Origin: Sphaerospermopsis aphanizomenoides BCCUSP55
Lineage (GTDB): Bacteria; Cyanobacteriota; Cyanobacteriia; Cyanobacteriales; Nostocaceae
DNA: 64,000 nucleotides
Assembly (NCBI RefSeq): GCF_001586785.1
Contig: NZ_LUFH02000011.1
Location: forward strand, 1 to 64,000
Reading direction: 5' to 3'
The notes under the pieces were generated by a model, which did not search any database, was not told the origin of the DNA, and was given only the letters and a program-made list of their open reading frames with translations. The stretch's first letter is position 1. Each line of letters begins with the position of its first letter. A program made the translations under genes and the position numbers. Below, piece by piece: positions 12,296 through 59,551 of this stretch.

Positions 12296-12330
12296 TTTAA
12301 TCTCAACCATAGTAATAGGAGATAATTTAT

Positions 12331-30038: not shown

Positions 30039-31133
30039 ATGTCAACTAAAAACATCATTTTTCTTGGCTTATTAGTGTTTATCCCCATCTCCCTAGCAGC
30101 GCACTTTTTAGAGTGGGGAGAATTGGTAGTTTTCATCACCGCTGGGTTGGCAATTTTACCCCTAGCAGCTTGGATGGGTGAGGCTACAGAAGAAATTGCC
30201 GTTGTCGTCGGTCCCTCATTAGGAGGGTTATTAAATGCCACCTTTGGCAATGCGACAGAACTGATTATTGCTTTAGTAGCTCTCAACGCAGGACTAATAG
30301 ATGTTGTTAAAGCCAGTATCACCGGCTCAATTATTGGCAACTTACTATTGGTCATGGGACTTTCGATGCTTTTGGGCGGACTGCGCTATAAGGAACAAAC
30401 ATTTCAATCTGTCGTGGCGCGAGTAAATGCTTCCTCAATGAACCTGGCGGTAATTGCGATTTTGTTACCAACAGCAATGAACTATACATCTATCGGCATC
30501 AATGAGAGAACATTGCAAAATCTCTCCCTTGCTGTTGCGGTAGTCTTAATTTTGGTTTATGCCCTCACACTGCTATTTTCTATGAAAACTCATGCCTATT
30601 TATATGACGTAGGTGTAGCAGATATAGAACTAGAAGCAGAAGAAAAAAACGAGGAAATCAAAGCAGAAAAACCAAATCTTTGGCTTTGGACTGGTGTATT
30701 GTTAGTTTGCACCTTACTGGTAGCCTTAGAGTCAGAATTCCTAGTTGATACCTTAGAAGTAGCCACATCTAAGTTAGGTTTGACAGCACTATTTACAGGG
30801 GTAATTTTGTTGCCCATAGTTGGTAACGCCGCAGAACACGCCACAGCAGTCACCGTAGCCATGAAAGATAAAATGGATCTGTCTTTATCTGTGGCTGTGG
30901 GATCAAGTATGCAGATAGCCCTATTTGTTGCCCCCGTTTTAGTCATTGCTGGACGAATATTAAATCAGCCAATGGATTTAGATTTCAATCCCTTTGAATT
31001 AGTAGCAGTAGCAGTAGCAGTTTTAATTGCTAATAGCATTAGTTCTGATGGTAAATCTAATTGGTTGGAAGGAACTTTACTCTTAGCAGCTTATATAGTT
31101 TTGGGTTTTGCTTTCTATTTCCATCCAGTATAG
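30039..31133 (+). CDS. Ca2+/H+ antiporter (CAX family)
   Basis: A 364-residue inner-membrane cation exchanger with about eleven helices. The two inverted alpha repeats are clear: GLLNATFGNATELIIALVAL in the first half and PIVGNAAEHATAVTVAMKDK followed by SVAVGSSMQIALFVAP in the second; the GNATE and GNAAEH glutamates are the cation-binding residues. An acidic loop between the halves (ELEAEEKNEEIKAEK) is typical. It moves Ca2+ out of the cytoplasm in exchange for protons. It is monocistronic, and a GGGTGTA repeat follows the stop codon. Confidence 0.93.
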   Translation: MSTKNIIFLGLLVFIPISLAAHFLEWGELVVFITAGLAILPLAAWMGEATEEIAVVVGPSLGGLLNATFGNATELIIALVALNAGLIDVVKASITGSIIGNLLLVMGLSMLLGGLRYKEQTFQSVVARVNASSMNLAVIAILLPTAMNYTSIGINERTLQNLSLAVAVVLILVYALTLLFSMKTHAYLYDVGVADIELEAEEKNEEIKAEKPNLWLWTGVLLVCTLLVALESEFLVDTLEVATSKLGLTALFTGVILLPIVGNAAEHATAVTVAMKDKMDLSLSVAVGSSMQIALFVAPVLVIAGRILNQPMDLDFNPFELVAVAVAVLIANSISSDGKSNWLEGTLLLAAYIVLGFAFYFHPV

Positions 31134-31193: not shown

Positions 31194-34100
31194 CTAATTT
31201 TCCACCCTATCTCTGTTCACTAAACTATCAACAGTAGAGAGAAACTCATGTTCTAAATAAGGTTTAGTTAAATAAGCAGTTGCACCCAATTCTTGAGCCA
31301 ACTGACGATGTTTTTCAGAACTACGAGAAGTGAGAACTACGACAGGTTTTTGAGCCAAAGTAGGATTTTGACGGATATGACTTAATAATTCAAATCCATT
31401 CATCCTGGGCATTTCTAAATCAGAAATTATCACCTCAACTTCAGGATGTAACTGCAATTGTTCGAGAGCTTCTACCCCATTTTGGGCTGAGAATACTTGA
31501 TAGCCAGACTTTTGTAAAGTCATCACCAGAGTTTGACGCACACTAATTGCATCATCTATAACTAATACTATGGGTGGTAATTTTGGTGTTATCCCTACAT
31601 AAGAACTTGGTTGAGATTCTCTAGTATTTGCCGGAGTTGATGCAGCGAGTAACGGAGTAGATTCAATGGAAGTTGCTGGAGATTCCTGAATTTTGACGGT
31701 ATTTGATGCAGCGAGTAACGGAGTAGATTCAATCCTATTTTCCGACATTGGTAAGGCTTGTTTCTGAGACTTAGCAGTAGTTGGTAAAGTCCTGACATCA
31801 AGTGTGGCTTGCATCTGTTGAGCGTCGATCAGCAAAGTACCGTCAATTACTAAAATCAAATTACCATTAGCCAAACTACTACAACCATAAATATATTTTG
31901 GTGGAGTAATGGCACTGCCTAAAGGTCTAATTACTAATTCTTGTTCACCGATAATATGATCAATTTCTAAACCCAATATTCCTTGATTGCGCCGTAGTAA
32001 CAGCACGGGATTTTTCATGATTTCTGTATCAGGATTATGGGGTATATTATTTAAATAATTACTGCCGACCAATGAACCGTTGTAATACATTAAATTGGAA
32101 AGCTTGATGAGGTTCACCATCATTTCTTCCTCACCAGAATTCCAATATAAAATTTGTTTGCCTTCAAAATCTTTAATTTGCTGTTCAGACGGAATAAGTA
32201 TTTTTTCGATACTGTCTAGCAGTAAGGCATAAACAACACCCCCTGCTTGGACTAACATGAGTTTATCTGTGGTCATAGAAAAGGGGATTTTGAGGATGAA
32301 TGTTGTTCCTTGATGGGGAGATGATTGGACGGAAATCACGCCATTAAGAGCTTGAAGTTGAGTACGGACAATATCTAATCCCATCCCACGTCCAGATATT
32401 TCACTCACTTTACCAGCGGTGGAAAATCCAGGTGTAAACATGAGGTTGATAAGTTCGGATTCAGTCAGGTTACGCTCATAGTCTTGACCATGATGATCAT
32501 CTGGGATCACATTAAGTTCGATTGCTCGATTACGAATTTTTCCTAAATTTAACCCTTGACCATCATCCCGCACTTCAATAATAGTCTGACTGCCTTGATG
32601 ATAGGCACATATTTCTATTAAACCTTGTTCATTTTTGCCAAGCTGACGGCGCATTTCTGGAGATTCAATACCATGATCAAAAGCATTACGCACTAACTGT
32701 ACTAAAGGATCATACAGCTTTTCGGCAATAGCTTTATCTATCAAAACTTGTGTGCCGGTGAGTTTTAATTCTACAAGCTTGGCATAAACATTTCCTAGCT
32801 TGTTGACCATTTGCGGAAAGCGATTTAAGATAGTTCCTAAAGGCAACATTCTTGCCTCTACGAGATTATCTATAATGTTGAGAGTGAGGTTAGATTGTTG
32901 CTCACTAATTTGAGTAGATTGTCTCATTAGTAAGTCCAGAGAATCAGCCGTTTCTTGGATTTGTAATGTTTCCTCTAAGGCTTCATGTAATGTTAAATTA
33001 AATTCTGTATATACATCCATTTCTAAAGTATCAAACTGCACATTAGAAACATTTTGTCTAGGTTCTATAGCAACATTATTTCCCTGTAAAGGTAAATCAC
33101 GCAATTGATTTAAAATAGATTGATGTTTGCTCAGTTGCTGACTTAATCGCTCAATTAATTCTAGAACTTGTTCATCATATAAACTGCGTCGTTTTTGATA
33201 AATTAACAATTCTCCTGCCAGATAATTGAGACGTTGCAACCCCTCTACATCTACACGCACAAATGAAGGCTGTCGGGTATTTTTATTTGGGGAAGATTGA
33301 GATTTATCTTCTATTTCTGTTTGATTTATCTCCTGATCCTCAGTAATAAATTCTAAGTTGGATTCAGGGGGATTTGTCACTACTTGATCACTGATAACTG
33401 ATGAAGTGACACTTCCTAAATAATCATCATTTTTAACATTTTCTGCGGTGTGGGTTGGAAAATGATGTTCTCCTGTTTCTGGAATAGTTTCTCCTCCCCA
33501 GATTTCCTCTAATAAATTATAGTCAGTAGTGGAAGCTACAGGGGTAGGTATGGATTTGATAACTAGCAATTCTTGTAATTTAGGATTGTCCAACCATTTT
33601 TTTTCTGCTTCTGTGACAGCAGGATAATGTTTATATTCTTTTCCTAATTCGCGGATTTGCTTTCTGAGTGTACTGATGATGGAGATAGCACTATTTCTGT
33701 TGAAAACTAAATACTGAAATTTGGCCAGGGATAGAAGAATAATTAAAATCACACCCCGACGATAAAGGCAAAGGTTTTGGTGATCCTGTTCTTCTTCAAT
33801 AAAATCTAGAAATTCATTCAGCCAAGTTTCTATATATTCTACTGCTTTCTCTTCATCATCTGAAGAAATTAACAGTTCTAAACTTAATGCTGCTTCTGGT
33901 ATATCTCGTTTGTGATTAAACCAACCAAAAATGTAACGAATTACTTTTAAATAAAATTTGGCATTGGCTGGTTTTAAAGGTTCGTTATTGATGTCACCTG
34001 ATGTAGTTAAAAAATGGTAAAATTCTGTAGTCAAACTAAAAAACTTTTCGGCAAAAGAGTTATTGATATGAATAATAGCTGTCTCTTGTTTGGGGAGTGT

Positions 34101-34931
34101 AGCTAATGAGCTAGTGGTGGGTTGTGTGGCTATGTAATCTGTGACGACTCCTGTCATTGCTTGCAAAGCCAGAGAAGGTGAACCACCACAAGTGCGATCG
34201 CCAGCTAAAACAGCTTTTTGCGCTGCTTGCAAATCAGTTAAAGCAATTTCTGCTATTTGACGTACTTGCTGAGGATTAGCTGCTAGTGCTGCGGTAATTG
34301 TCCGAGACAATTCACCAAAACCTGGTAAATTTAGAGATTCAGCTAAACCTAAAAATACCTCAACCTGTAAGTTTAAAAACTCGACTAATTCCTGATTATT
34401 TAGGGAATTATGAATTGCTTCAGCAATACTTTCTAATCGTTGGGTAACTCCCACTTCAAAGATAGACTGAACAATATCAAATCCCAATTCTTCCGATGTA
34501 GGAATATGAGATTCTGCACCAAAATGATCTCCTAATTTGGTTTGTAATTGTGCAAATGCTGTGGTTGCTCTTTGGAGAATTTCTTCACTATCAATATTAC
34601 TTGATGTCAATTCCGCTGTGACAGCTAACTGAAGACATTCATAACCTTCTAATAATAGTGTGTACAATTCTCCATCTATAACTAAATCAGGACTATATAA
34701 AGCTTTGAATATATCTTCTAAAGAATGGGCAATCATTTTGATGGTGTCTAGCCCAACGGTAGCCGCACCACCCTTAATAGTGTGAGTTGCCCGCATTAAG
34801 TTATGGATTTTAGCGGTACTATGATCTTCTGATAAACTAAATAAATCTTGTTCTATTGTTTGTAATAGTTCAGGGGCTTCTGCCAAGAAATAAGCATAGC
34901 CTTGTTGGCGAATTTCATTGTCTGTAATCAT
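31194..34931 (-). CDS. CheA-type hybrid histidine kinase with receiver
   Basis: A 1245-residue soluble kinase, last gene of the chemosensory operon. An Hpt domain comes first with phospho-accepting H50 (ATHTIKGG), followed by a long helical region. The dimerisation helices lie around 580-700, and the ATPase domain has LVRNAFDHGIES near 745, DDGQGLNLG and GRGMGLDIVRTQ. A CheW-like domain starts near 885 and a REC domain occupies about 1120-1245 with D1171 (ISDLEMPRMNG). A linker at about 1055-1115 contains a duplicated ESTPLLAAS unit encoded by two identical 31-bp stretches. This matches the PilL/PixL/PtxE-type kinases that control type IV pilus motility in cyanobacteria. It phosphorylates itself in response to the neighbouring receptor and passes phosphate to the CheY and PatA-type proteins. 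Confidence 0.92.
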   Translation of the reverse strand: MITDNEIRQQGYAYFLAEAPELLQTIEQDLFSLSEDHSTAKIHNLMRATHTIKGGAATVGLDTIKMIAHSLEDIFKALYSPDLVIDGELYTLLLEGYECLQLAVTAELTSSNIDSEEILQRATTAFAQLQTKLGDHFGAESHIPTSEELGFDIVQSIFEVGVTQRLESIAEAIHNSLNNQELVEFLNLQVEVFLGLAESLNLPGFGELSRTITAALAANPQQVRQIAEIALTDLQAAQKAVLAGDRTCGGSPSLALQAMTGVVTDYIATQPTTSSLATLPKQETAIIHINNSFAEKFFSLTTEFYHFLTTSGDINNEPLKPANAKFYLKVIRYIFGWFNHKRDIPEAALSLELLISSDDEEKAVEYIETWLNEFLDFIEEEQDHQNLCLYRRGVILIILLSLAKFQYLVFNRNSAISIISTLRKQIRELGKEYKHYPAVTEAEKKWLDNPKLQELLVIKSIPTPVASTTDYNLLEEIWGGETIPETGEHHFPTHTAENVKNDDYLGSVTSSVISDQVVTNPPESNLEFITEDQEINQTEIEDKSQSSPNKNTRQPSFVRVDVEGLQRLNYLAGELLIYQKRRSLYDEQVLELIERLSQQLSKHQSILNQLRDLPLQGNNVAIEPRQNVSNVQFDTLEMDVYTEFNLTLHEALEETLQIQETADSLDLLMRQSTQISEQQSNLTLNIIDNLVEARMLPLGTILNRFPQMVNKLGNVYAKLVELKLTGTQVLIDKAIAEKLYDPLVQLVRNAFDHGIESPEMRRQLGKNEQGLIEICAYHQGSQTIIEVRDDGQGLNLGKIRNRAIELNVIPDDHHGQDYERNLTESELINLMFTPGFSTAGKVSEISGRGMGLDIVRTQLQALNGVISVQSSPHQGTTFILKIPFSMTTDKLMLVQAGGVVYALLLDSIEKILIPSEQQIKDFEGKQILYWNSGEEEMMVNLIKLSNLMYYNGSLVGSNYLNNIPHNPDTEIMKNPVLLLRRNQGILGLEIDHIIGEQELVIRPLGSAITPPKYIYGCSSLANGNLILVIDGTLLIDAQQMQATLDVRTLPTTAKSQKQALPMSENRIESTPLLAASNTVKIQESPATSIESTPLLAASTPANTRESQPSSYVGITPKLPPIVLVIDDAISVRQTLVMTLQKSGYQVFSAQNGVEALEQLQLHPEVEVIISDLEMPRMNGFELLSHIRQNPTLAQKPVVVLTSRSSEKHRQLAQELGATAYLTKPYLEHEFLSTVDSLVNRDRVEN

Positions 34932-35171: not shown

Positions 35172-38100
35172 TTATTTCACTTTGAACTTACCAGCAGTGG
35201 TTAACAAAGCTTGTGCCATTTCTGATAAGTTCTGGAACACGGTAGCAATTTCCTGAGATTCGCCAAAGGTTTTGTTAGCTATGGCCGCTACGTCATTCAT
35301 TGAAGTTGTTACTGTTGCTGATTGATGCATTTGTTTTTGAGTAGCTTCAGTAATACGCTCAATTAGTTGACTAATTTCCGCAGTTGCAGAAACAATATCA
35401 TTCAAGTTTTGACGGGTTTCATTGACTAAGTTTGTCCCTTCTACTACTTGCTTAATCCCAGTTTCCATTGCGACAGCAACTTCACCAGTTTCTGCTTGAA
35501 TTTCTTGGACTAATTTTTCAATTTCGATGGTGGCTGCTGCTGACTGACGTGATAAAGAACGTACTTCATCGGCTACCACTGCAAAGCCTTTTCCATATTC
35601 ACCAGCGCGAGTGGCTTCAATAGCCGCATTCAAAGCGAGTACGTTGGTTTGGGTGGCAAAGTTACTAATCAAATTCACCACTTTGGAGATTTTTTGTGAT
35701 GATTCACTCAGGCGTTTAATCTTTTTACTGGTTTGGGCTACGGTTTCCCGAATGGCCTGAATAGCATTAACTGTTTGGTTCATGGCTGTATCACCAGAAT
35801 CTACAGTTTTGTTGGCCTGTTGAACTGCAACTTGCACTTGTTGAGCGTTAGCTACTACCGCTTGGGTAGAATCTACCATCTGTTGAATATCGCGTAAGGC
35901 TTGGGTAATTTCGTCAGACTGTGCTTTTGCTAAGTCAGTCAATCCGACGAGGGAAGAACTACTATGGATAGAGGTTTGGGCAACTTGTTGAGAGGCGGTT
36001 TGTACCTGAATAACTATTTGTTGTAATGCTTGCAGAGTGCCATTATAAGCATCCGCTATTGTCCCTAATTCGTCCTCTGTGATGGGAGCGCGGACGGTTA
36101 GATCCCCACTGAGTGCAGGACTGATGGCTCTAAGTAGTTGAATAGAGCGTTGTTGCAATAATTCTTTGGCGGCTTTTTCCCGTTGGGCTGCTTCTGCAAG
36201 TTGGGATGATTGAGTTTGCAGTTGTTTCAAGTATTCGGTTTGTTGTAAGGCCAGTCCTAACTGGTCGCCTATCCGTGCTAACAAGTTAATTTCTGATTCT
36301 TCCCATTCACGGGGTGCAGAGTTTTGATAAGCTGCCAGTAATCCCCAGAGTTTTTCTCCAAATAAGATGGGAGTAATGATATATCCTCTGGCTTCATATT
36401 TTTCAATGATTTCTATGTAGCAAGGATCAAGGGTAGCTTTATATATGTCTGCAACTACCAAGGTGTCACCTTTTTGATAGCGCCCACCTTCGTTGCTTTG
36501 TAGACAAGGGTCGTTTAAAACAGTTTTGATGCCTGGCGCAACTAGTTTCACCCAACCACTAGCTACAGATTCTGCTACAAATTCGCCACCCCAATCGGAT
36601 GTGAATTGATAAACAGCGGCGCGATCGCATTTGAGTTGTTGTCTGACTTCTTGTGTGGTGGTTTTGAAGATTTCTTCTACGTCTAAGGATTGACGAATGC
36701 GGTTGACTATTTTGGTAATAGTTTTTTCTTGTTCAGCGATTTGCGCTAGTTTCTCAGATTTGGATTGTACTTGTTCTATGTAATCTATCTGAGATTTTGC
36801 CAGACTAATTTGCAAACCAATTTGTTCTAAGAAGTTGATTTCTCTGGATTGCCATTCACGAGTACCTGTATTTTGATATGCTGCCAATAATCCCCATAGT
36901 TTTTCGCCATAAAAAATGGGAACTATCATGTAAGCTTTGGCTTCAACTTGCTCTAAAATCTCCAGATGACATTGAGCATGACCTGCTTTGTAAATGTCAT
37001 TGACGATGAAGCTTTCACCTTTGGCATATCTACCACCTTGGGTTTCTTGAAGGTGGCTATCTTCCCAGACCATGTTGAAGTCTGACGTAGCAACTTTCAT
37101 CCAGCCACTAGCTACTGATTCAGCGATGAATTTTCCACCCCAATCAGGATTAAATTGATAAACAGCGACGCGATCGCATCTGATTAGTTGACGAACTTCT
37201 TGAGTTGCAGTTTTTAAGATTTCTTCTAAATCGAAGGATTGACGGATGCGGTTGACTATTTTGTTGAGGGCTTTTTCTTGTTCCGCTAACTGACTGATTT
37301 CCTGAGATTGTAACCGCACTTGTTCTAGATAATCTAGCTGTGATTTGGCTAGGCTAAATTGCAGTCCAATTTGTTGTAAAAAGTTGATTTCTGATGCTTT
37401 CCATTCACGAGTTCCGCTGTTTTGATAAGCTGCGAGTAAGCCCCACAGTTGTTCACCAAAGAATATCGGCACTATCACATAAGCTTTAGCTTCAAACTGT
37501 TCTAGTATGGCGATATGACAAGGGGCTAGACCTATTTTGTATGTGTCATTAACTACAAAAGTTTCACCTTTGGCATATCTACCGCCCTTGGTGTCTTGTA
37601 AATAAGTGTCATCCACTACGGTTTTGATACCTGGCCCGACTAATTTTGTCCAACCAGTACTAACTGATTCGGCTACAAATTCTCCACCCCAATCTGGTTT
37701 AAATTGATAGACGGCAACGCGATCGCATTTCAGGGCTAGGCGAACTTCTTGAGTAGTTGTTCTGAAGATTTCTTCTACATCTAAGGATTGACGGATGCGG
37801 TTGACAATCCTGTTGATAGTTTTCTCTTGTTCTGCTATTTGCGCTAGTTCATCAGTTTTTAATTTGACTGTTTCTAGATAATCTATTTGTGATTTGGCCA
37901 GATTGAACTGTAAGGCTATTTGACTCAGAAAGTTAACTTCTGAACTTTGCCATTCACGGGTGTCAGAATTTTGGTAAGCTGCTAACAATCCCCACAATTT
38001 ATCTCCAAAGAAAATGGGGACATTAATATAAGCTTTGGCTTCAAATGTCTCTAACAGTTCTAAGTAACATAAAGCCAGATTTTCTTGATAAATATCATTT

Positions 38101-39575
38101 ACCCACAGGTTTTCACCTTTAGTAAATCTCGCTCCTTTGGTTTCTTGCAAGTATGTATCTTCAACCAAGGCATTGATATCATTACCAACTAGTTTGACCC
38201 AGCCAGTTCCTACTGATTCAGCGATAAAATTGCCACTCCAATCTGGATGAAATTGATAGATAGCAACGCGATCGCATTTTAGTGCCTGCCGTGCTTCTTG
38301 AGTTGTGGTTTTGAAGATTTCTTCTAAATCTAAGGATTGTCGAATTCTGTTAACTATCTTGGTTAAGGCTTTTTCCTGTTTAGTAATCTGCGCCAGTTGG
38401 TCAGATTGTTTCTGCACTTGTTCCAGATATTCTCCTTGGGAAATAGCCACACCAAATTGCAAGCCAATCTGATTTAAAAAACTTACTTCCCAGTCTTGCC
38501 ATTCCCGTGGTCCAGTATTCTGATAGGCTGCTAATAAACCCCACAGTTTTTCTCCAGAGAAGATGGGAGCAATGATATAGGCTTTGGCTTCAAATTGTTC
38601 TAATATATCAATGTGGCACTGAGCCAAACCGATTTTATAGGTGTCATTGACAATAAAAGTTTCTCCATGAGCGTATCGGCCACCTTTGGTTTCCTGTAAG
38701 TGGGTATCTTCCCAAACCATTTTAAAATCAGGGGTGACTATTTTTGTCCAATTTTTACCCACTGATTCGGAAACAAATTGTCCACTCCAATCTGGGTTAA
38801 AACGATAAACACCAACACGGTCGCATTTTAATAATTGTCTGACTTCTTGAGTAGTAGTTTGAAAGATTTTATCTACATCTGGCTGTTGTAAAATTTTGCT
38901 GATGACTTTAGCTGCGGATTTCTTAGCTAAGGCAGACTGTTGCAATTCTTTCTGCAATTTAAAGCTCTGCAATCTGTAAGTAATTTCTGTAGTTATTTGC
39001 GAGACTAAAGTAATTTCTGCCTCTTGCCATTGACGTTCTGAACCACAACTATGGACTACTAACAAACCCCATACTTTACCATCAACAAATATGGGTACAC
39101 TTAAACTAGCTTTGACTTGAAATTTATCCAGTAATTGTTTTTGATAAGGAGTAGCTTGAATTTGATTAATGTCGTCAATTACTACGGCTTCAAGATAATC
39201 TTGATCGGTATATAAGCCAAATAAAATAGCTGGTAGATTCTCCCCTAAAGATGGTGTCCAACCTGTAGTTCTTGATTCTGCTAAAACAACTCCAGAATCA
39301 GAGTTAGTAAATTGATAAATTAAAGCGCGATCGCCATCAATTTTGTTCCTGATTTGTGATGCTGTTACCTTTAACAAGGTATCCATATCTGGAACTTGGC
39401 GCATTTGTGCTGTTATGTATTGGAAACGTTGCCGCCAAAGTTTAAATTCCTGAGTAATTGCATTCGATTCTTTATGGGTATCATTTGTTAGTGTCCCACC
39501 ATTTTTGTGTTCTACTTTTTCTACTTCTGCAAAGATATTGCTTCTATCTTCATTACTTTGATATACAGTTGTCAT
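35172..39575 (-). CDS. pixJ: Soluble methyl-accepting protein with six GAF domains, cyanobacteriochrome-like
   Basis: A 1467-residue receptor for motility control. There is no membrane segment. GAF1 (about 58-205) has no bilin cysteine. GAF2-GAF6 carry the conserved cyanobacteriochrome cysteine at C320, C503, C686, C869 and C1052, exactly 183 residues apart; GAF2, 4 and 5 have Cys-His, GAF3 and 6 Cys-Tyr. Segments such as DTYLQ-TKGGRY and LEQFEAKAYIIAPIFSGE match the red/green type found in AnPixJ. A HAMP-like region follows near 1145-1200 and the signalling hairpin (ATQTNVLALNAAIEATRAGE) near 1306-1325. It should sense light and regulate the CheA kinase downstream. Phototaxis receptors of this kind are called PixJ or PtxD; the symbol is given by resemblance, and the GAF number differs from those that I remember. 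Confidence 0.9.
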   Translation of the reverse strand: MTTVYQSNEDRSNIFAEVEKVEHKNGGTLTNDTHKESNAITQEFKLWRQRFQYITAQMRQVPDMDTLLKVTASQIRNKIDGDRALIYQFTNSDSGVVLAESRTTGWTPSLGENLPAILFGLYTDQDYLEAVVIDDINQIQATPYQKQLLDKFQVKASLSVPIFVDGKVWGLLVVHSCGSERQWQEAEITLVSQITTEITYRLQSFKLQKELQQSALAKKSAAKVISKILQQPDVDKIFQTTTQEVRQLLKCDRVGVYRFNPDWSGQFVSESVGKNWTKIVTPDFKMVWEDTHLQETKGGRYAHGETFIVNDTYKIGLAQCHIDILEQFEAKAYIIAPIFSGEKLWGLLAAYQNTGPREWQDWEVSFLNQIGLQFGVAISQGEYLEQVQKQSDQLAQITKQEKALTKIVNRIRQSLDLEEIFKTTTQEARQALKCDRVAIYQFHPDWSGNFIAESVGTGWVKLVGNDINALVEDTYLQETKGARFTKGENLWVNDIYQENLALCYLELLETFEAKAYINVPIFFGDKLWGLLAAYQNSDTREWQSSEVNFLSQIALQFNLAKSQIDYLETVKLKTDELAQIAEQEKTINRIVNRIRQSLDVEEIFRTTTQEVRLALKCDRVAVYQFKPDWGGEFVAESVSTGWTKLVGPGIKTVVDDTYLQDTKGGRYAKGETFVVNDTYKIGLAPCHIAILEQFEAKAYVIVPIFFGEQLWGLLAAYQNSGTREWKASEINFLQQIGLQFSLAKSQLDYLEQVRLQSQEISQLAEQEKALNKIVNRIRQSFDLEEILKTATQEVRQLIRCDRVAVYQFNPDWGGKFIAESVASGWMKVATSDFNMVWEDSHLQETQGGRYAKGESFIVNDIYKAGHAQCHLEILEQVEAKAYMIVPIFYGEKLWGLLAAYQNTGTREWQSREINFLEQIGLQISLAKSQIDYIEQVQSKSEKLAQIAEQEKTITKIVNRIRQSLDVEEIFKTTTQEVRQQLKCDRAAVYQFTSDWGGEFVAESVASGWVKLVAPGIKTVLNDPCLQSNEGGRYQKGDTLVVADIYKATLDPCYIEIIEKYEARGYIITPILFGEKLWGLLAAYQNSAPREWEESEINLLARIGDQLGLALQQTEYLKQLQTQSSQLAEAAQREKAAKELLQQRSIQLLRAISPALSGDLTVRAPITEDELGTIADAYNGTLQALQQIVIQVQTASQQVAQTSIHSSSSLVGLTDLAKAQSDEITQALRDIQQMVDSTQAVVANAQQVQVAVQQANKTVDSGDTAMNQTVNAIQAIRETVAQTSKKIKRLSESSQKISKVVNLISNFATQTNVLALNAAIEATRAGEYGKGFAVVADEVRSLSRQSAAATIEIEKLVQEIQAETGEVAVAMETGIKQVVEGTNLVNETRQNLNDIVSATAEISQLIERITEATQKQMHQSATVTTSMNDVAAIANKTFGESQEIATVFQNLSEMAQALLTTAGKFKVK

Positions 39576-39783: not shown

Positions 39784-40257
39784 TTAGTTATGACTGCTCC
39801 ACATTGGTGATTGTATAATAGATAACGCATCTAAACTAAAAACCATCTCCTCTGCACCATTAGTAAAGTACCCTTGTAAAAATGGTGACATGGCTGGATA
39901 AAATAGATCAGCCGATGGAGTCTTCATTTGCTGAATATCTAACCACTCAATATCCATCAATTGGCGCACTAAAAGACCCAAATATTTACCCTCTGTTTCT
40001 AGTACAATTGCCATCATTTTTGAGAGGAGATTGGAACTTTGTAAAAGAGGTGGATAACCCAACATTTCTTCTAAATCAACTAACCACAGCATTTCGCCAC
40101 GCCAGCTATAAATACCCAAGACACTATTGGGCATCTGTGGAACTCCACAGACTTCTGTCAATGAGACTCGTAATACTTCGGTGATGTGATCTAATGAAAT
40201 TACTGCTTTATCTCTTACTCCCAAATTAAAACTCAAAAATTTATGTTTCGTGTCCAA
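39784..40257 (-). CDS. CheW-like adaptor
   Basis: A 157-residue CheW domain protein that couples the receptor to the CheA kinase. VPQMPNSVLGIYSWRGEMLW is the conserved core (cf. 'vpg.p..v.GvinlRG.ilp'), followed by LVDLEEMLG. It lies about 200 bp before the receptor gene and 100 bp after CheY, in the order PatA-type, CheY, CheW, receptor, CheA that is usual for cyanobacterial motility operons. The start is LKH-free (MDTKHKFLSFNLG); nothing is odd about length. Confidence 0.88.
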   Translation of the reverse strand: MDTKHKFLSFNLGVRDKAVISLDHITEVLRVSLTEVCGVPQMPNSVLGIYSWRGEMLWLVDLEEMLGYPPLLQSSNLLSKMMAIVLETEGKYLGLLVRQLMDIEWLDIQQMKTPSADLFYPAMSPFLQGYFTNGAEEMVFSLDALSIIQSPMWSSHN

Positions 40258-40360: not shown

Positions 40361-40726
40361 TTACTTATTAATCAATTTTCTCAAAGTGATTTCTAACTCT
40401 TCTCTATCTACTGGTTTTGAAAGATAAGCTTTAGCCCCCAGCATATTCCCCCAAATTTTATCTACTTCACTATTTTTAGTGGAGCAGAAAACTACAGGTA
40501 TCTGGCTAGTATGAGGATTATTTTGTAATTCTCGACAAATTTCATAACCACTTTTACCCGGTAGAATTACATCCAGCAATATCACATCAGGTTTACTCGC
40601 ATCTATTTTTACTTGCGCTTCTTCACTACTTGTGGCAGAAATTACAGAATAACCTGCCTGTTGTAAGTAACGACTGATCACTTCCATATCAGCCAAGCCA
40701 TCTTCAACAACTAATACCGTACTCAT
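40361..40726 (-). CDS. CheY-type response regulator
   Basis: A 121-residue single receiver domain. The acidic pair ED is at residues 8-9 (VVEDG), the phospho-acceptor is D52 (ILLDVILPGKSG), the conserved Thr/Ser switch is in VVFCSTKNS, and the lysine in AYLSKPVDREE. It has no output domain, so it acts by binding a partner, as PilH/PixH do on pilus motors. Second gene of the chemosensory operon. Confidence 0.93.
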   Translation of the reverse strand: MSTVLVVEDGLADMEVISRYLQQAGYSVISATSSEEAQVKIDASKPDVILLDVILPGKSGYEICRELQNNPHTSQIPVVFCSTKNSEVDKIWGNMLGAKAYLSKPVDREELEITLRKLINK

Positions 40727-41022: not shown

Positions 41023-42234
41023 TTAACTGGAAACTTCTAAATGAGGTGTATTTCTAGCTGTTGAATTAGCTTGTACAGGTAAATATTTGCGTATTACACC
41101 CATCACCCGATCAGCCACTATGGGTTTAGAGATAAAATCTGTTGAGCCTACAACCTTAGCACGAACCCGATCCAAAAGACCATCATTGCCAGTTAAGATA
41201 ATTACTGGTGTATGAGCAAAGGCAGGAATGCGCCGTAATTGAGTACAAATTTCGTAACCACTGGCTACTGGCATAATTAAATCCAAGAAAATTAAATCTG
41301 GTTTTTCCTGAATCAAAACAGGCAAAGCTTGCACAGCATCTTGAACTTTAGTAAACCTCAACCCATGACCAACAATAATATCCTCTAACATTTTACAGAC
41401 AAGAGGACTATCATCCACACAAGCTATAAGTGGTGCGGCCCTGCGATTGATTTGACTTTTAGCTTGTTTAGGGGTAGAGCTTTCACCTTCAGTAACTTGT
41501 AAAGGTAAGTCAGGTACTTCTACTAACTCAATGATTCCTTTGAGTATATAGGGAAGTAAGGAACGAGAAACAGGCATAACATCCTGCTTCATTTTCAGTG
41601 CCAACTCTCGCAGAGTATACTTACCATTAATTAAATTGACAAAGTTTTTGTATACAGAAGGACTAACCATCTGCTGAAGTTGTTCTGTTCTTCGCAGGAT
41701 GGGTGATAAATTAGGCGAAACATTTGCCAAACCAACCTGTGACCAAATAGCCCATGAGTCTTGCATCTGTTTAATCGACATATCTGCACTTGTAAAGCTC
41801 ATAGGCATTTCTAAGATCACGTCTTGGCTGAGATTACAAGTTACAGAAGCAAAGTCTAGTTCCTGGGCTAGATCAAAAAATAGTTCAGCAATTGTGTTTT
41901 CGACAATAGCTTGTATTTGTTCTCGTTGGATTTTTTGTCTTTTGTATAAAATATCCAACAGGTTATAATCCCAGTAGTCTACAGCAAAATCGTCAGATCG
42001 ACAGCGAATTTTATCTAATTCAATCTGCGGACAATATTGAGCGATATGTCTACGCCAACGTCTGAAGGGATGAGTTCCACCTGTTGCCCAGACAATTCTC
42101 CCTAGGCGATAGTAAAAAGTCCATTCACGTCCTTTGGAACTCTTAATATTTAACTTGCCATTGTATTGGAATTGAGTACAGGTTTTAAACTCATGTAGTA
42201 TGTTATGCGATTCTAGAAGTTCTGAGTTGGTCAT
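41023..42234 (-). CDS. PatA-type response regulator (PATAN + receiver)
   Basis: A 403-residue regulator, first gene of the operon. The N-terminal 240 residues form the PATAN (DUF4388-like) domain of the PatA subfamily, beginning with FKTCTQFQYNGKLNIKSSKG and YYRLGRIVWATGG. The receiver lies at about 268-385, with VDD at 273-275, phospho-acceptor D318 (IFLDLIMPVASGYE), and the switch lysine in FISKPIV. In cyanobacterial motility operons this position is held by PilG/PixG. In other contexts PatA governs heterocyst pattern, but the operon context here points to motility. The 1.4 kb upstream has no gene. Confidence 0.9.
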   Translation of the reverse strand: MTNSELLESHNILHEFKTCTQFQYNGKLNIKSSKGREWTFYYRLGRIVWATGGTHPFRRWRRHIAQYCPQIELDKIRCRSDDFAVDYWDYNLLDILYKRQKIQREQIQAIVENTIAELFFDLAQELDFASVTCNLSQDVILEMPMSFTSADMSIKQMQDSWAIWSQVGLANVSPNLSPILRRTEQLQQMVSPSVYKNFVNLINGKYTLRELALKMKQDVMPVSRSLLPYILKGIIELVEVPDLPLQVTEGESSTPKQAKSQINRRAAPLIACVDDSPLVCKMLEDIIVGHGLRFTKVQDAVQALPVLIQEKPDLIFLDLIMPVASGYEICTQLRRIPAFAHTPVIILTGNDGLLDRVRAKVVGSTDFISKPIVADRVMGVIRKYLPVQANSTARNTPHLEVSS

Positions 42235-53768: not shown

Positions 53769-56700
53769 ATGATGTCTGCTGATTCAATTAATACTGCCTT
53801 GGCAGAGTTAGAGAAGCTTGTTAACAGTTGTGAAAAAGATTTGATGAGGTTTATAGAGGAAAAAAAGATGAAATCGGATAACCAAATCTCAACTAACAAA
53901 ATTAACAGACAACTGCAACAAAATCCTATTGCTATTGTCGGCATGGCTTCTTTACTACCACAAGCAAGAAACTTACGGCAATACTGGGCAAATATTGTTA
54001 ATAAAACTGATTGTATCACTGATGTTCCTGAAAGCCATTGGAGCGTCAAAGATTACTACGATCCTAATCCTAGAACACCAGAAGATAAAACCTATTGTAA
54101 ACGCGGTGGTTTTATTCCGGAAGTTGATTTTAACCCAATGGAATTTGGGATTCCTCCCAGCATTTTAGAAGTTACTGATGTATCGCAACTCTTAAGTTTA
54201 GTAGTTGCCAAAGAAGCAATGGAAGATGCTGGTTATGGTGAATCTCGTGAATTTAGCCGCGAGAATGTGGGGGTAATTTTAGGTGTGGCAATGGCTAAAC
54301 AATTGGGTATGCCATTATCTGCCAGATTAGAATATCCTGTGTGGGAAAAAGTTCTCAAAAGTAGCGGTTTATCTGACGAAGATACTCAGAAAATCGTCGA
54401 AAAAATCAAAAGTGCATACATCAAATGGGATGAAAACGCATTCCCTGGAATGTTAGCAAACGTTGTCGCTGGACGTATTGCTAACCGCCTCAATTTTGGC
54501 GGTATGAACTGTGTAGTAGATGCGGCTTGTGCTAGTTCCTTTGGTGCTTTAAAAATGGCCATTAGTGAACTGGTGGAACATCGCAGCGATATGATGCTGA
54601 CTGGTGGTGTGGATACCGATAACACCATCATGGCTTACATTTCTTTTAGTAAAACTCCCGCTGTTTCTCCTAGCGACAACGTTAAGCCTTTTGATGCTAA
54701 ATCAGATGGAATGATGTTAGGTGAAGGTATCGCTATGCTCGTTCTCAAACGCTTAGAAGATGCGGTCAGAGACGGGGATAAAATCTATGCAGTTATTAAA
54801 GGAATTGGCACTTCTAGCGATGGCCGCTACAAGAGTATTTATGCACCACGAAAAGAAGGACAAGTTAAAGCTTTAGAACGTGCTTACAATGATGCTGGTT
54901 TTTCTCCGGCAACTGTAGGTTTGATGGAAGCGCACGGTACAGGAACAATGGCTGGAGATCCCACAGAATTTGGTTCTTTGCGCGATTTCTTTAGTCAATA
55001 TGACAACAAAAAACAGCACATTGCTTTAGGTAGTGTAAAATCACAAATTGGACATACCAAAGCCGCCGCAGGTGCAGCTAGTTTAGTTAAAACTGCTTTG
55101 GCATTACATCATAAGATTTTACCACCAACTATCAATATTACTGAGCCAAATCCTAAGCTGGATATTGAAAATTCATCCTTTTATTTGAACACTGAAACTA
55201 GACCTTGGATACGCGCAGAAGGTGAAGCACCAAGACGCGCAGGTGTAAGTTCCTTTGGTTTTGGTGGCACTAATTATCACGTTGTTTTGGAAGAATACGA
55301 AGCCGAACAACAACAAGCTTACCGTTTACATAATGCACCCAGTGAAGTGTTATTATTTGGTTCTACTCCGGCAGAATTAATTACTAAGTTAGAAGCAACT
55401 TTCAATAATTTGCAATCTAACGAAGGAGAAAGACATTACTCCCAATTAGTCCAAGAATCCAAGTCTTTAACTATTCCCAAAACTGCTGCCAGAATTGGTT
55501 TTGTAGCTGAGAATCTACAAGAGGCTTGCAAGTTACTAAAAGTTAGTATTGATTTACTAAAAAATAAACAATCAGCAGTTTCTTGGGAACATCCACAAGG
55601 TATTTATTACCGTTCTTCTGGCATAGAATTGGCTGGTAAAGTAGTTGCTTTATTCTCTGGTCAAGGTTCTCAATACCTAGAAATGGGTAGAGAAGCAGTA
55701 ATGAATTTCCCAGCTTTACGACGGTTGTATGGGTTGATGGATGGGTTGTTAATTAAAGATAATTTGCAGCCTATTTCAGAAATTGTTTTCCCCCATCCAA
55801 CTTTTAATGAAGCTGAGAAAAACGCTCAAATTGCAGCTTTGCAAAGAACCGAATATGCTCAACCTGCAATTGGTGTTTTTAGTGCTGGTTTGTATTCTAT
55901 TTTCCAACAAGCTGGGTTTAAATCAGATTTTGCTGCCGGACATAGTTTTGGTGAATTAACCGCATTGTGGGCTGCGGGAGTGCTGAGTGAAGAAGATTAT
56001 TTGTACTTGGTTAAGTCTAGAGGTCAAGCGATGGCTGCACCAAAAGATCCTGACCATGATGCAGGTAGTATGTTAGCGGTGAAGGAAGATATCACCAAAG
56101 TAGAAGCAGTATTGCGGAATTATCCCCAAATTGCGATCGCTAACTTTAATTCTCCCACTCAAGTTGTTTTAGCTGGGCCAACTGGTGAAATTAAGAAAAT
56201 TCAGCAGAAGTTCCAAGAGTTAGGATATGGGGCGGTATTGTTACCAGTTTCCGCTGCTTTCCACACACCTTTAATTGCATTTGCTCAAAAGTCCTTTGCA
56301 ATTGCAACAAAATCTGTAGCTTTCCAAAATCCCAAAGTTACCATTTTCAGCAACGTCACTGGTAAACAATATCCTCAAGAACCTGCCAGCATTCAAAGAG
56401 TATTAGAAAGTCATCTTTCTAGCTCGGTTATGTTCAAGCAAGAGATAGAAAATATCTATGCTGCTGGTGGTTATTGCTTCGTAGAATTTGGACCAAAACG
56501 CATTCTGACCAACTTGGTAAAAGATATTTTGGGTGAGCGTCCACATATTACAGTTTCACTCAATCCTAGCACCCAGAAAAACAGCGATCGCACCCTCAGA
56601 GAAGCAGCAATACAACTGCGCGTCATTGGTATGGCTTTGAATAATCTCGACCCCTACCAACTACCTCCAACATTACCCCCAGCCGAAACCAAAAAAGTCT

Positions 56701-59195
56701 TAAACGTCAAATTAAGAGGTATTAACTACGTTTCCGAAAAAACCAAAAATGCCTTTGCTGAAGCATTAAACGATGGATTCAAAATCAAAGGAGTTCAAGG
56801 AGTTCAGGAGTTCAGTAGTTCAGGAATAGAAACTTCACTAACAGAAGTTCAAAATTCTAAGCAATTAGAAATTCAAGACCCTAAGAAATTAGAAGTTAAG
56901 AATTCTGCAACTCCTGTAACTTCTTCCACCAACGGAAATGGTAACGGTAACGGTAACGGACACAAGAAAACCCCAGTAATTACTTCTTTGCAACAGTCCC
57001 AGATGAATCCTGTTAACCCTTCAAATCAAGCCACCAAAGAGTTATTACCTACAGTACCCTATGCGCTTGCAGAGCGTCTCGGAGGGAAAATGGAAACACA
57101 CCATAAAAATATCAACTTCCAACAGGTTCTAGAAAGTTTAGAAAACCTCCTGAACCAGTTTCAAAACAACCAAAGCGATAACTTAGAAATACACGGGACA
57201 TACCTGAACCATCAAATGGAATATGCCAGAACATTTTTCCAACTGATGCAACAGCAAAACGCCCTGTTTATTAATAGTAAATCTTCAGAAGCTGCCCAAA
57301 TCAAACAAGTAGTGATGGAAAGCTTCGAGCGCAGCATGATGCAGTTTCACAGCCAACAAGCTGAAACCCTCCGCATACATGAACAATATCTGCGGGAACA
57401 AGTAGAATACACCAAAAACTTTTTCCAACTGATTCAACAAGAATATTCTCTACTAATTGACGGTACAGAAACAATTCAACCCGTAATTCCGCCTCAATTT
57501 ACCGAGACACACACCAACAGTTTGCGGGAATTGATGTCCCCAAGCCCAGAACCAACCATTACAGAAACAGTTGTTCCTCCTACTGCCAAAATAGTAGAAA
57601 CTCAAGAACCTGTAATTATCCAAACTGCACCTGTAATAGAAGCAGTTACCCTGCCTAAAATTGCAGAACCTGTAATAGAAATACCCGCTCCAATTGTAGA
57701 GCCTGTAATAGAAAAACAACCGCAACCATTTGTACCTGTAGCATTAATTCCCGAACCAACAAACCCCGGAGTTAATATTCACGAATTAGGTAAAAACCTC
57801 CTAGCTATCACTAGCGAAAAAACCGGTTATCCCATCGAAATGTTAGAGTTCGACATGGACATGGAAGCCGACCTGGGTATTGATTCCATCAAACGAGTAG
57901 AAATACTGGGAGGATTGCAAGAATTATACCCTGACCTACCCAAGCCAAACCTAGAAGAACTGGCAGAAAAACGCACCATCGGTCAAATTGTTGAGTATCT
58001 GGAAAAGCAGGTGACAGGTGACAGGTTACAGGTGACAGAAGAGGTGACAGGTGACAGGTTACAGGTGACAGAGGAAGTCAAAGAAGAGTTAATAGCTACT
58101 CCCCAGTCTCTAGTCCCCAGTCCTCAGTCCCCAGCCCCCAGCAACGAATATGCAGAACTAGCGCAAACCCTGTTAAATATCACCAGTGAAAAAACAGGCT
58201 ACCCAGTCGAGATGCTAGAACTAGACATGGACATGGAAGCCGACCTGGGAATTGACTCCATCAAACGGGTAGAAATACTGGGAGCGATGCAAGAAGCATA
58301 CCCCGACTTACCCAAGCCAAATATAGAAGAATTAGGCGACCTGCGGACAATTGGACAAATCGTGAACTACCTCCAGAAGCTGGTGGGAGGCGAAAAAAAA
58401 AAGCTTGATGCTGACGCGATAACCGCAGATTTCATTCCCCAAGTGGTGGACTTAACCCCACCACCACCAGCAGACCCAAATCTTCCTCGTCGTCCGGTCA
58501 AACTAAAAACTTTACCCCGACCTGATTTTTGGGAATGCAAACTACCAGAGGGACACATTGGTGTAATCACTGATGATGGTTCTCTCACCACCACCAAACT
58601 GGCTCACGCACTCCTAGAACAAGGTTGGAAAGTAGTAGTTTTGAGTTTCCCCCAATCATTAGTTCCTGAACAGTCGCCATTACCAGTAGGAGTTACCCGC
58701 CTCACCTTGGCGAATATGAGTGAAGAACATCTACAACTACTACTGCAAAGCATCAGCATTCAACACGGAAAGATTGGGGCATTTATTCACCTACATCCAC
58801 AATTCACAACCACAAATATTGGTTATTTAGAAACAGAAAAAGCGATTGTCAAACACATCTTTTTGATGGCGAAACATCTAAAACAATCGCTTAACACAGC
58901 CGCCAATTTAGAAGGAAGAGTTAGCTTCTGCACAGTTGCCCATCTTGACGGCACATTTGGTTTAGACCACACAGAAAACTTCGGAATTATTGGTGCAGGA
59001 TTATTAGGATTAACCAAGAGCTTGAGATGGGAATGGCCAAAAGTATTCTTGAGAGCAATTGATTTAAATCCCAACTTAGATCCACACCAATCAGCAGAAT
59101 ATATTGTAGCAGAACTGCATGATTCTAACAGATATATCGGTGAAGTTGGTTATAGCTCCAAGGGAAGAGTAACACTCGTAGCCGAAACTGAATAA
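53769..59195 (+). CDS. hglE: Heterocyst glycolipid polyketide synthase HglE (KS-AT-ACP-ACP-psiKR)
   Basis: An 1808-residue PfaA-like synthase making the long alkyl chain of heterocyst glycolipid. KS occupies about 48-480 (C254 in DAACASS, EAHGTGT, GHTKAAAGAAS); AT follows at about 615-920 (S726 in GHSFGE). Two helical repeats sharing HxxYLxxQxEY lie at about 1110-1235, then a Pro/Val/Glu-rich linker. ACP1 and ACP2 follow with phosphopantetheine serines S1373 and S1497 (DLGIDSIKRVEIL), joined by a repeat-encoded linker. The last 190 residues look like the structural half of a ketoreductase without an NADPH loop; the catalytic half is in hglF. A second start at 53868 has a better ribosome site (GAGGAAAAAAAG) and would remove 33 residues. 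Confidence 0.93.
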   Translation: MMSADSINTALAELEKLVNSCEKDLMRFIEEKKMKSDNQISTNKINRQLQQNPIAIVGMASLLPQARNLRQYWANIVNKTDCITDVPESHWSVKDYYDPNPRTPEDKTYCKRGGFIPEVDFNPMEFGIPPSILEVTDVSQLLSLVVAKEAMEDAGYGESREFSRENVGVILGVAMAKQLGMPLSARLEYPVWEKVLKSSGLSDEDTQKIVEKIKSAYIKWDENAFPGMLANVVAGRIANRLNFGGMNCVVDAACASSFGALKMAISELVEHRSDMMLTGGVDTDNTIMAYISFSKTPAVSPSDNVKPFDAKSDGMMLGEGIAMLVLKRLEDAVRDGDKIYAVIKGIGTSSDGRYKSIYAPRKEGQVKALERAYNDAGFSPATVGLMEAHGTGTMAGDPTEFGSLRDFFSQYDNKKQHIALGSVKSQIGHTKAAAGAASLVKTALALHHKILPPTINITEPNPKLDIENSSFYLNTETRPWIRAEGEAPRRAGVSSFGFGGTNYHVVLEEYEAEQQQAYRLHNAPSEVLLFGSTPAELITKLEATFNNLQSNEGERHYSQLVQESKSLTIPKTAARIGFVAENLQEACKLLKVSIDLLKNKQSAVSWEHPQGIYYRSSGIELAGKVVALFSGQGSQYLEMGREAVMNFPALRRLYGLMDGLLIKDNLQPISEIVFPHPTFNEAEKNAQIAALQRTEYAQPAIGVFSAGLYSIFQQAGFKSDFAAGHSFGELTALWAAGVLSEEDYLYLVKSRGQAMAAPKDPDHDAGSMLAVKEDITKVEAVLRNYPQIAIANFNSPTQVVLAGPTGEIKKIQQKFQELGYGAVLLPVSAAFHTPLIAFAQKSFAIATKSVAFQNPKVTIFSNVTGKQYPQEPASIQRVLESHLSSSVMFKQEIENIYAAGGYCFVEFGPKRILTNLVKDILGERPHITVSLNPSTQKNSDRTLREAAIQLRVIGMALNNLDPYQLPPTLPPAETKKVLNVKLRGINYVSEKTKNAFAEALNDGFKIKGVQGVQEFSSSGIETSLTEVQNSKQLEIQDPKKLEVKNSATPVTSSTNGNGNGNGNGHKKTPVITSLQQSQMNPVNPSNQATKELLPTVPYALAERLGGKMETHHKNINFQQVLESLENLLNQFQNNQSDNLEIHGTYLNHQMEYARTFFQLMQQQNALFINSKSSEAAQIKQVVMESFERSMMQFHSQQAETLRIHEQYLREQVEYTKNFFQLIQQEYSLLIDGTETIQPVIPPQFTETHTNSLRELMSPSPEPTITETVVPPTAKIVETQEPVIIQTAPVIEAVTLPKIAEPVIEIPAPIVEPVIEKQPQPFVPVALIPEPTNPGVNIHELGKNLLAITSEKTGYPIEMLEFDMDMEADLGIDSIKRVEILGGLQELYPDLPKPNLEELAEKRTIGQIVEYLEKQVTGDRLQVTEEVTGDRLQVTEEVKEELIATPQSLVPSPQSPAPSNEYAELAQTLLNITSEKTGYPVEMLELDMDMEADLGIDSIKRVEILGAMQEAYPDLPKPNIEELGDLRTIGQIVNYLQKLVGGEKKKLDADAITADFIPQVVDLTPPPPADPNLPRRPVKLKTLPRPDFWECKLPEGHIGVITDDGSLTTTKLAHALLEQGWKVVVLSFPQSLVPEQSPLPVGVTRLTLANMSEEHLQLLLQSISIQHGKIGAFIHLHPQFTTTNIGYLETEKAIVKHIFLMAKHLKQSLNTAANLEGRVSFCTVAHLDGTFGLDHTENFGIIGAGLLGLTKSLRWEWPKVFLRAIDLNPNLDPHQSAEYIVAELHDSNRYIGEVGYSSKGRVTLVAETE
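58011..58076 (+). repeat. In-frame 33-bp tandem repeat in hglE
   Basis: Two 33-bp units, each built from GTGACAG/GTTACAG heptamers, encode VTGDRLQVTEE twice between ACP1 and ACP2. The same heptamer occurs between hglF and hglG. Confidence 0.85.
58099..58141 (+). repeat. In-frame CCCCAGT repeat in hglE
   Basis: CCCCAGT/CTCAGT heptamers encode TPQSLVPSPQSPAPS, the rest of the inter-ACP linker. They are STRR-like and do not resemble neighbouring coding sequence. Confidence 0.75.
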
Positions 59196-59214
59196 CTTGT
59201 AAGGTGGGCAATGC

Positions 59215-59395
59215 CCACCACACAAATAAACAGTGTTTCGCGCAAAGATACAAAGGAGCAAAGACGCAAAATATATTATCTTCTTCTTTTCGTCTCTTCT
59301 TCTCTTCTTCCTTCGTGTCCTTCGCTTTCTTCGTGGTTCATTAAATCTTCTCTTTGCGCCTTTGCGTCTTTGCGTGAGATTTTAACAAATAATCT
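59215..59395. repeat. Palindromic repeat between hglE and hglF
   Basis: A CGCAAAGATACAAAGGAGCA arm on the left and a TTTGCGCCTTTGCGTCTTTG arm on the right form a large imperfect inverted repeat of the kind dispersed in cyanobacteria. A 69-codon ORF over it is a by-product. Confidence 0.6.
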
Positions 59396-59551
59396 TCTGT
59401 TAGGTGAAAAGTTTTTTTAAAACGAACCACAGAAGCACAGAGTACACAGAGAGAGGAAACAATTTTTTTAACTATGCAGACCAATGAAATGTTTTGAATT
59501 TAGGCATTTTTAATTTTTAATTTTTAATTTTTAACTCATCACCGAGGAATT

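Follow-up and report, generated by a model that had tools for sequence, protein, structure and literature searches.

Architecture and relatives of the receptor

The 64,000-nucleotide stretch of Sphaerospermopsis aphanizomenoides BCCUSP55 analysed here (contig NZ_LUFH02000011.1, positions 1 to 64,000; hereafter the window) carries a gene for a 1467-residue protein that is very probably a Pix/Ptx-type phototaxis receptor. In this reading, to which we assign a probability of roughly 0.85 for identity, lineage and age taken jointly, the protein is an orthologue of AnPixJ from Nostoc PCC 7120 and NpR6012 from N. punctiforme, its five bilin-type GAF domains belong to the expanded red/green (XRG) lineage and its tandem repeats are old. 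As read from the sequence, a bilin-less GAF comes first, five XRG GAFs follow, and the protein ends with a HAMP-like stretch and then an MCP domain; the gene lies between those for CheW and CheA. Bilin binding, Che signalling and pilus-based phototaxis are taken from relatives (PMC5812497).

A preliminary description had reported five tandem cyanobacteriochrome GAF domains with bilin-type cysteines at residues 320, 503, 686, 869 and 1052. These positions hold, as do the linkers shared among the units and the exact step of 183 residues (549 bp) from each cysteine to the next. When the protein is matched against itself over lags of 20 to 799, the best lag is 183, with 499 identities; the multiples 366, 549 and 732 give 397, 263 and 142, and the next-best other lag gives 124. 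Similarly, 549 and 1098 bp are the two best lags in the gene DNA (lags 20 to 2299). The cysteine is followed by His in GAF2, GAF4 and GAF5 and by Tyr in GAF3 and GAF6, again as described. Overlooked were GAF1, which has no cysteine at the bilin position, and an extra cysteine, Cys1024, in a DPCL motif of GAF6.

Pfam recovers six GAF stretches, a weak HAMP match under the cut-off and an MCP signalling domain, whereas all listed NCBIfam matches fall far under their curated cut-offs. The highest Kyte-Doolittle average in any 19-residue segment is 1.54 and the usual threshold for a membrane helix is about 1.6; thus, the receptor looks soluble, with no evident membrane helix. Its best PDB match is 3w2z (286 bits), which is AnPixJg2 (PMC11284453). 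The MCP domain, together with neighbouring genes for CheW, CheA and receivers, is the setting sought for a phototaxis receptor of the AnPixJ/NpR6012 type.

There are 79 homologues in the comparison set. They derive from 85 non-redundant complete proteins, from which four with split domain matches (L044 and the three proteins with seven GAFs) were removed, leaving 81, and of which two more failed the requirement that the first unit be over 50% identical to the first unit of the window protein. The 79 are best matches and not a random sample; one (L028) comes from another family, and near-copies were retained. Seven of them carry two bilin-type units, 48 carry three, ten four, nine five and five six. 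A FastTree phylogeny with local support values was built from 206 units, representing 48 AnPixJ-type proteins, one seven-GAF protein (L132) and 20 references.

In this tree the units cluster by position and not by species. All first units, GAF2 of the window protein included, form a single clade of 48 plus AnPixJg2 (support 100). GAF6 and 17 others form a clade of 18 (support 99) that adjoins the other last units and NpR6012g4, so that the first bilin-type GAF groups with AnPixJg2 and the last with NpR6012g4. GAF3, GAF4 and GAF5 fall among the middle units, in a clade of 80 rows (support 99) that leaves out four third-position units of other proteins. Within this clade, GAF3 lies in a group of 15 rows and GAF4 in one of 14, each specific to its position, and GAF5 lies in a clade of 11 that holds the GAF5 of near relatives plus the fifth and sixth GAFs of two arrays that are one unit longer. 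All five units are placed with AnPixJg2, NpR6012g4 and Slr1393g3, away from DXCF GAFs, which bears out the common origin claimed for them earlier.

By this comparison, the array stems from three kinds of unit, namely first, middle and last. The middle kind multiplied in the lineage of the window before the near relatives diverged. The period of 183 residues, which is found in nearly all AnPixJ/NpR6012-related arrays, has been retained since. Unlike most homologues, which have three bilin-type GAFs, this receptor has five and a second cysteine in the last. Another relevant system is PtxD (NpF2164) of N. punctiforme, described as a many-GAF MCP receptor beside Che genes that is required for positive phototaxis (PMC5812497). 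The receptor studied here is likewise an MCP protein with many GAFs beside Che genes, but PtxD has seven GAFs and this one six. Three seven-GAF MCP proteins (L132 to L134) are likely of the PtxD kind, as judged by GAF number alone; L132, the one included in the tree, has its units on branches apart from those of the window. No paper combining cyanobacteriochromes, tandem GAFs, PixJ and phototaxis was found in the literature searched.

Age of the repeats

The exact 549-bp period and the shared linkers had been taken to imply recent duplication or gene conversion. Divergence between the units speaks otherwise. The number of synonymous substitutions per synonymous site (dS) between units of the window protein is 1.14 to 2.63, and that between each unit and the same-position unit in four six-GAF relatives (L050, L001, L002 and L052) is 0.65 to 1.19; estimates greater than 1 approach saturation and are rough, and the two ranges touch. 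For each of the five units, nevertheless, the minimum within the protein exceeds the maximum at the same position. A fifth species compared (L004) has one extra unit and no GAF3 of the clade to which GAF3 of the window belongs, and there the best match of GAF3 has a dS of 1.20.

Between units of the window protein, identical in-register stretches of DNA reach 23 bp at most, and same-position units of the window and L050 share runs of 17 to 38 bp. Comparisons in sliding segments gave 19 cases out of 660 with L050, and 39 out of 660 with L001, in which a unit resembled some other unit of the window protein more than its same-position counterpart; this gives conversion a little support. Codon identity at shared residues between different-position units was compared within and between five species, using units 3 and up. 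It is 0.55 in both cases for the core, 0.56 in both for the C-terminal helix, and 0.67 within versus 0.64 between species for the linker. This slight excess in the linker also favours conversion; conversion confined to the linker was considered and set aside.

Pairs of units that are truly younger do occur elsewhere. In the five homologues with six bilin-type units (L004, L078, L075, L076 and L077), the fifth and sixth units have nucleotide identities of 0.81 to 0.90. Given the near-saturated synonymous divergence, the short identical runs, the equal core codon identity and the grouping by position, the duplication was not recent in the species of the window, and gene conversion could not be detected there. 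We therefore regard it as scarcely credible that the five units are the product of a recent tandem duplication or undergo homogenisation by gene conversion.

Colour motifs of GAF2 to GAF5

Typical red/green XRG domains rely on the Trp of a WXDXXL motif (PMC11284453). This Trp is present in GAF2 (WEDTHL) and GAF5 (WEDSHL) and is replaced by V, V and L in GAF3, GAF4 and GAF6. Among the 79 homologues it is found in every first unit (79/79), in 49 of 115 middle units and in 58 of 79 last units. The earlier suggestion that the units may differ in colour is likely to be right, although the main clue is not the contrast of Cys-His and Cys-Tyr but the distribution of this Trp and the second cysteine of GAF6. 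GAF2 and GAF5 are predicted to be red/green, and GAF3 and GAF4 to be atypical in colour.

The missing Trp could also be read to mean that GAF2 and GAF5 alone sense light and that GAF3, GAF4 and GAF6 are structural spacers. However, all five units retain the bilin cysteine, all 18 members of the GAF6 clade carry DPCL, and XRG domains in which Cys replaces the Trp are reported still to bind bilin and photoconvert (PMC11284453), so we consider a spacer role unlikely.

A variant of the same motif was seen in another receptor (from G397), whose last two GAFs lie at L117:1984-3120: the last GAF of this AnPixJ-type array has CEDTHL. This CXDXXL motif is tied to phycoviolobilin (PVB) formation in other XRG domains (PMC11284453).

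A second cysteine in GAF6

GAF6 combines the body of a red/green domain with a cysteine at the DXCF position. It scores 184 bits against 6bhn (NpR6012g4 by its title) and 79 bits against 4fof; 4glq, identical in sequence to 4fof, is called TePixJg (PMC11284453). The distance from the second to the canonical cysteine is 28 residues in all GAF6-type units measured (6 of 18), and the same spacing occurs in the 11 GAFs from the genome of the window for which both cysteines were located (ten of DXCF or EXCF type and one with DPCI); in five further reference GAFs a script found no such pair. Both DPCL and Cys-Tyr are present in 18/18 units of the GAF6 clade.

The DPC motif and the 28-residue spacing raise the alternative that an ordinary DXCF-lineage domain was recombined into the array. 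Against this stand the far higher score to NpR6012g4 than to TePixJ and the tree, in which GAF6-type units remain inside XRG even when the motif columns are masked and group apart from DXCF GAFs. A topology that joins them with ten DXCF GAFs from the genome of the window was rejected by the approximately unbiased (AU) test (p-AU 0.016), for a group that was defined after the first tree had been seen. Such recombination is very improbable. Rather, because red/green-lineage placement coincides with the 28-residue spacing and clade-wide DPCL, a red/green domain appears to have gained a DXCF-type cysteine, and we read GAF6 as a reacquired two-cysteine site in the red/green lineage. It probably follows a two-cysteine cycle in which Cys1024 serves as a reversible second link and one state is blue or violet.

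Reacquisition of this cysteine in XRG domains is already in print and is not new with GAF6. Such domains were reported in 2017, with isomerisation of phycocyanobilin (PCB) to PVB and a reversible linkage at C10 (Rockwell, Martin and Lagarias 2017, doi 10.1111/php.12708, as cited in PMC11284453). Like them, GAF6 is of red/green lineage with a second cysteine at the DXCF position, and it is a probable new member of this known variant. The 2017 study reportedly includes Anacy_3174g6, which to judge by its name is presumably the sixth GAF of an Anabaena cylindrica protein and may then be an orthologue of GAF6. No mention of Anacy_3174 was found in the literature searched, which covered the dual-Cys/DXCF field thinly. 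AM1_1186g2 of Acaryochloris is also of XRG lineage with a second cysteine reversibly linked to the bilin, but that cysteine is described as lying in the alpha3 helix and not at the DXCF position (PMC6628166).

A further homologue (L062:2122-3261, from the G206 receptor) has WYDTCL and Cys-His in its GAF4, so that the Trp is kept. This is a probable second, separate gain of a cysteine at the DXCF position.

Length of the joining helices

Within the GAFs of the 79 homologues, 262 of 273 units have a distance of 108 residues from the Cys of CDR to the Trp of REW. Junctions between bilin-type GAFs measure 75 residues in 177 of 194, 68 in eight, 77 in eight and 78 in one, and the GAF1-GAF2 junction is 68 residues in 77 of 79. 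Examined by eye, the eight 68-residue junctions, all located after GAF3, lack one heptad inside a predicted continuous helix, and the 77- and 78-residue junctions have their extra two to three residues in the turn past the helix. As few as one or two events could account for all eight of the short junctions. Division of the 194 junctions into helix and remainder by regular expression gave 53+22 in 146, 46+22 in seven, 53+24 in eight and 53+25 in one; 30 were cut three to four residues early at VS or IS and were re-read by eye as 53+22 (29) or 46+22 (one), and two were unmatched.

An AlphaFold2 model of a GAF5-GAF6 construct, made with 50 of the 79 sequences, has a single 52-residue helix (residues 149 to 200) followed by a break at 201-204; the mean per-residue confidence (pLDDT) is 84.6, and the predicted template-modelling score (pTM) of 0.58 leaves the relative placement of the domains unsure. 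Foldseek returns 3w2z as its top PDB match and 6bhn as the fourth. A hydrophobic heptad pattern in the GAF5-GAF6 linker is weak: 78 of 2000 shuffles had at least as much power at a period of 3.5, which was one among six periods examined.

To look beyond these homologues, 673 junctions were collected from 195 diverse tandem cyanobacteriochrome sequences, a set that shares entries with the homologues, and 671 were kept. At 60% identity they form 174 clusters, of which 63 have length 68 and 66 have length 75; only six of the other 45 lie on a seven-step ladder (two at 61, three at 82 and one at 89), about as expected by chance. At 45% identity there are 64 clusters, with 27 and 19 in the two modes and four of the other 18 on the ladder. 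A general heptad rule for such linkers was therefore rejected: the two modal lengths are one heptad apart, and no rule extends beyond them. Helix length in the diverse proteins was also measured by means of a motif, but this measure was discarded because it misplaced the helix end, with 230 of 671 junctions unmatched and many others matched in the next helix.

The period and the predicted helix are compatible with a helical spine of fixed length. Whether the even period has been kept because the joining helices require a fixed length is evenly balanced in our judgement. The phytochrome-linked cyclases known as PadC offer a parallel, having fixed-length helical linkers whose lengths follow largely seven-residue steps, with minority classes at -4 and +2, although the PadC linker joins PHY to GGDEF and not GAF to GAF (PMC9587094).

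The surrounding locus

Coordinates of the receptor and its neighbours are listed in the table. In 18 of 19 Nostocales loci compared, the three upstream genes lie on the same strand beside the receptor gene, and in 18 of 19 CheA follows downstream on the same strand; the exceptions in gene order (L013 and L015) both have the receptor close to a contig end. From this gene order, the receptor is read as belonging to a conserved five-gene phototaxis operon. We take the DUF4388-receiver regulator to be PixG/PatA-like. By Pfam, a single gene in the genome belongs to the bilin reductase family (Fe_bilin_red, PF05996), so the host can presumably make bilin.

Table. Features of the receptor locus, in coordinates of the window.
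Feature	Position	Strand	Description and basis
CheA	31194..34931	minus	Hpt, HATPase, CheW-like and receiver domains; downstream of receptor; open reading frame (ORF) and Pfam
Receptor gene	35172..39575	minus	1467 aa, ATG start; six GAF, HAMP-like and MCP signalling domain, AnPixJ-type; ORF call, Pfam, homologues
MCP signalling domain	35280..35825	minus	Residues 1251-1432; Pfam
HAMP-like stretch	36018..36128	minus	Residues 1150-1186; Pfam match below cut-off
Unit 6 (GAF6)	36195..36743	minus	549 bp, Cys1052-Tyr, LNDPCL; positional orthologue of NpR6012g4 with second Cys
Cys1024 codon	36504..36506	minus	Second Cys, DXCF position, 28 residues N-terminal of Cys1052
Unit 5 (GAF5)	36744..37292	minus	549 bp, Cys869-His, WEDSHL
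Unit 4 (GAF4)	37293..37841	minus	549 bp, Cys686-His, VDDTYL, Trp lost
Unit 3 (GAF3)	37842..38390	minus	549 bp, Cys503-Tyr, VEDTYL, Trp lost
Unit 2 (GAF2 and half-linkers)	38391..38939	minus	549 bp, Cys320-His, WEDTHL; AnPixJg2 orthologue
GAF1	38982..39389	minus	No Cys at bilin position
CheW	39784..40257	minus	Upstream of receptor; ORF and Pfam
CheY-like receiver	40361..40726	minus	Upstream of receptor; ORF and Pfam
DUF4388 and receiver response regulator	41023..42234	minus	Upstream of receptor; ORF and Pfam

A sodium/calcium exchanger gene (30039-31133) adjoins the CheA gene on the other strand; it was found in none of 19 orthologous Nostocales stretches, although several of these extend only a short way on one side. 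Elsewhere in the window, polyketide synthase-like genes at 53769-61282 encode, by domain matches, a 1808-residue KS-AT-ACP protein and then KR/dehydratase functions, and may presumably serve heterocyst glycolipid synthesis. At 10361-15057, an ORF distantly like MreB/actin (under the Pfam cut-off) stands immediately ahead of an ORF for a HerA-like ATPase.

Proposed mechanism and significance

Each of the five GAFs would bind phycocyanobilin through its own cysteine, and light would flip the bilin between its 15Z and 15E states. Five channels, two of them red/green (GAF2 and GAF5), two atypical (GAF3 and GAF4) and one using two cysteines (GAF6, through Cys1024), would thereby feed a single MCP domain. 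The change of state would travel along the helices that join GAF to GAF and to the MCP domain and alter CheA activity, and the receivers would then steer type IV pilus motility. Perhaps the even period is kept since these helices must have a fixed length. A broader and rather doubtful extension is that the helices form a phase-locked spine into which cyanobacteria add, drop or recolour whole 183-residue cassettes (2 to 6 per receptor), with nearly all joining helices at two lengths one heptad apart, such that each added colour channel would be coupled to the same MCP output.

Some points weigh against the picture of an old, multicoloured phototaxis receptor. The phototaxis role is drawn from the relatives PixJ1 of Synechocystis and PtxD of N. 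punctiforme (PMC5812497), and PtxD-like receptors form a separate branch. The motif of GAF6 is DPCL and not DPCF, with Leu after the second cysteine, and the group in the AU test was chosen post hoc. In addition, GAF3 and GAF4 might carry no bilin, and the linkers follow no general heptad rule.

The age of these repeats corrects a tempting misreading, since exact tandem spacing can be old and held by selection and is no mark of recent copying. The homologues also provide a clean natural series, with 2 to 6 units and one red/green unit turned into a two-cysteine domain, with which to ask how many colours a single phototaxis receptor can combine. This series falls in the family that holds the well-studied red/green domains.

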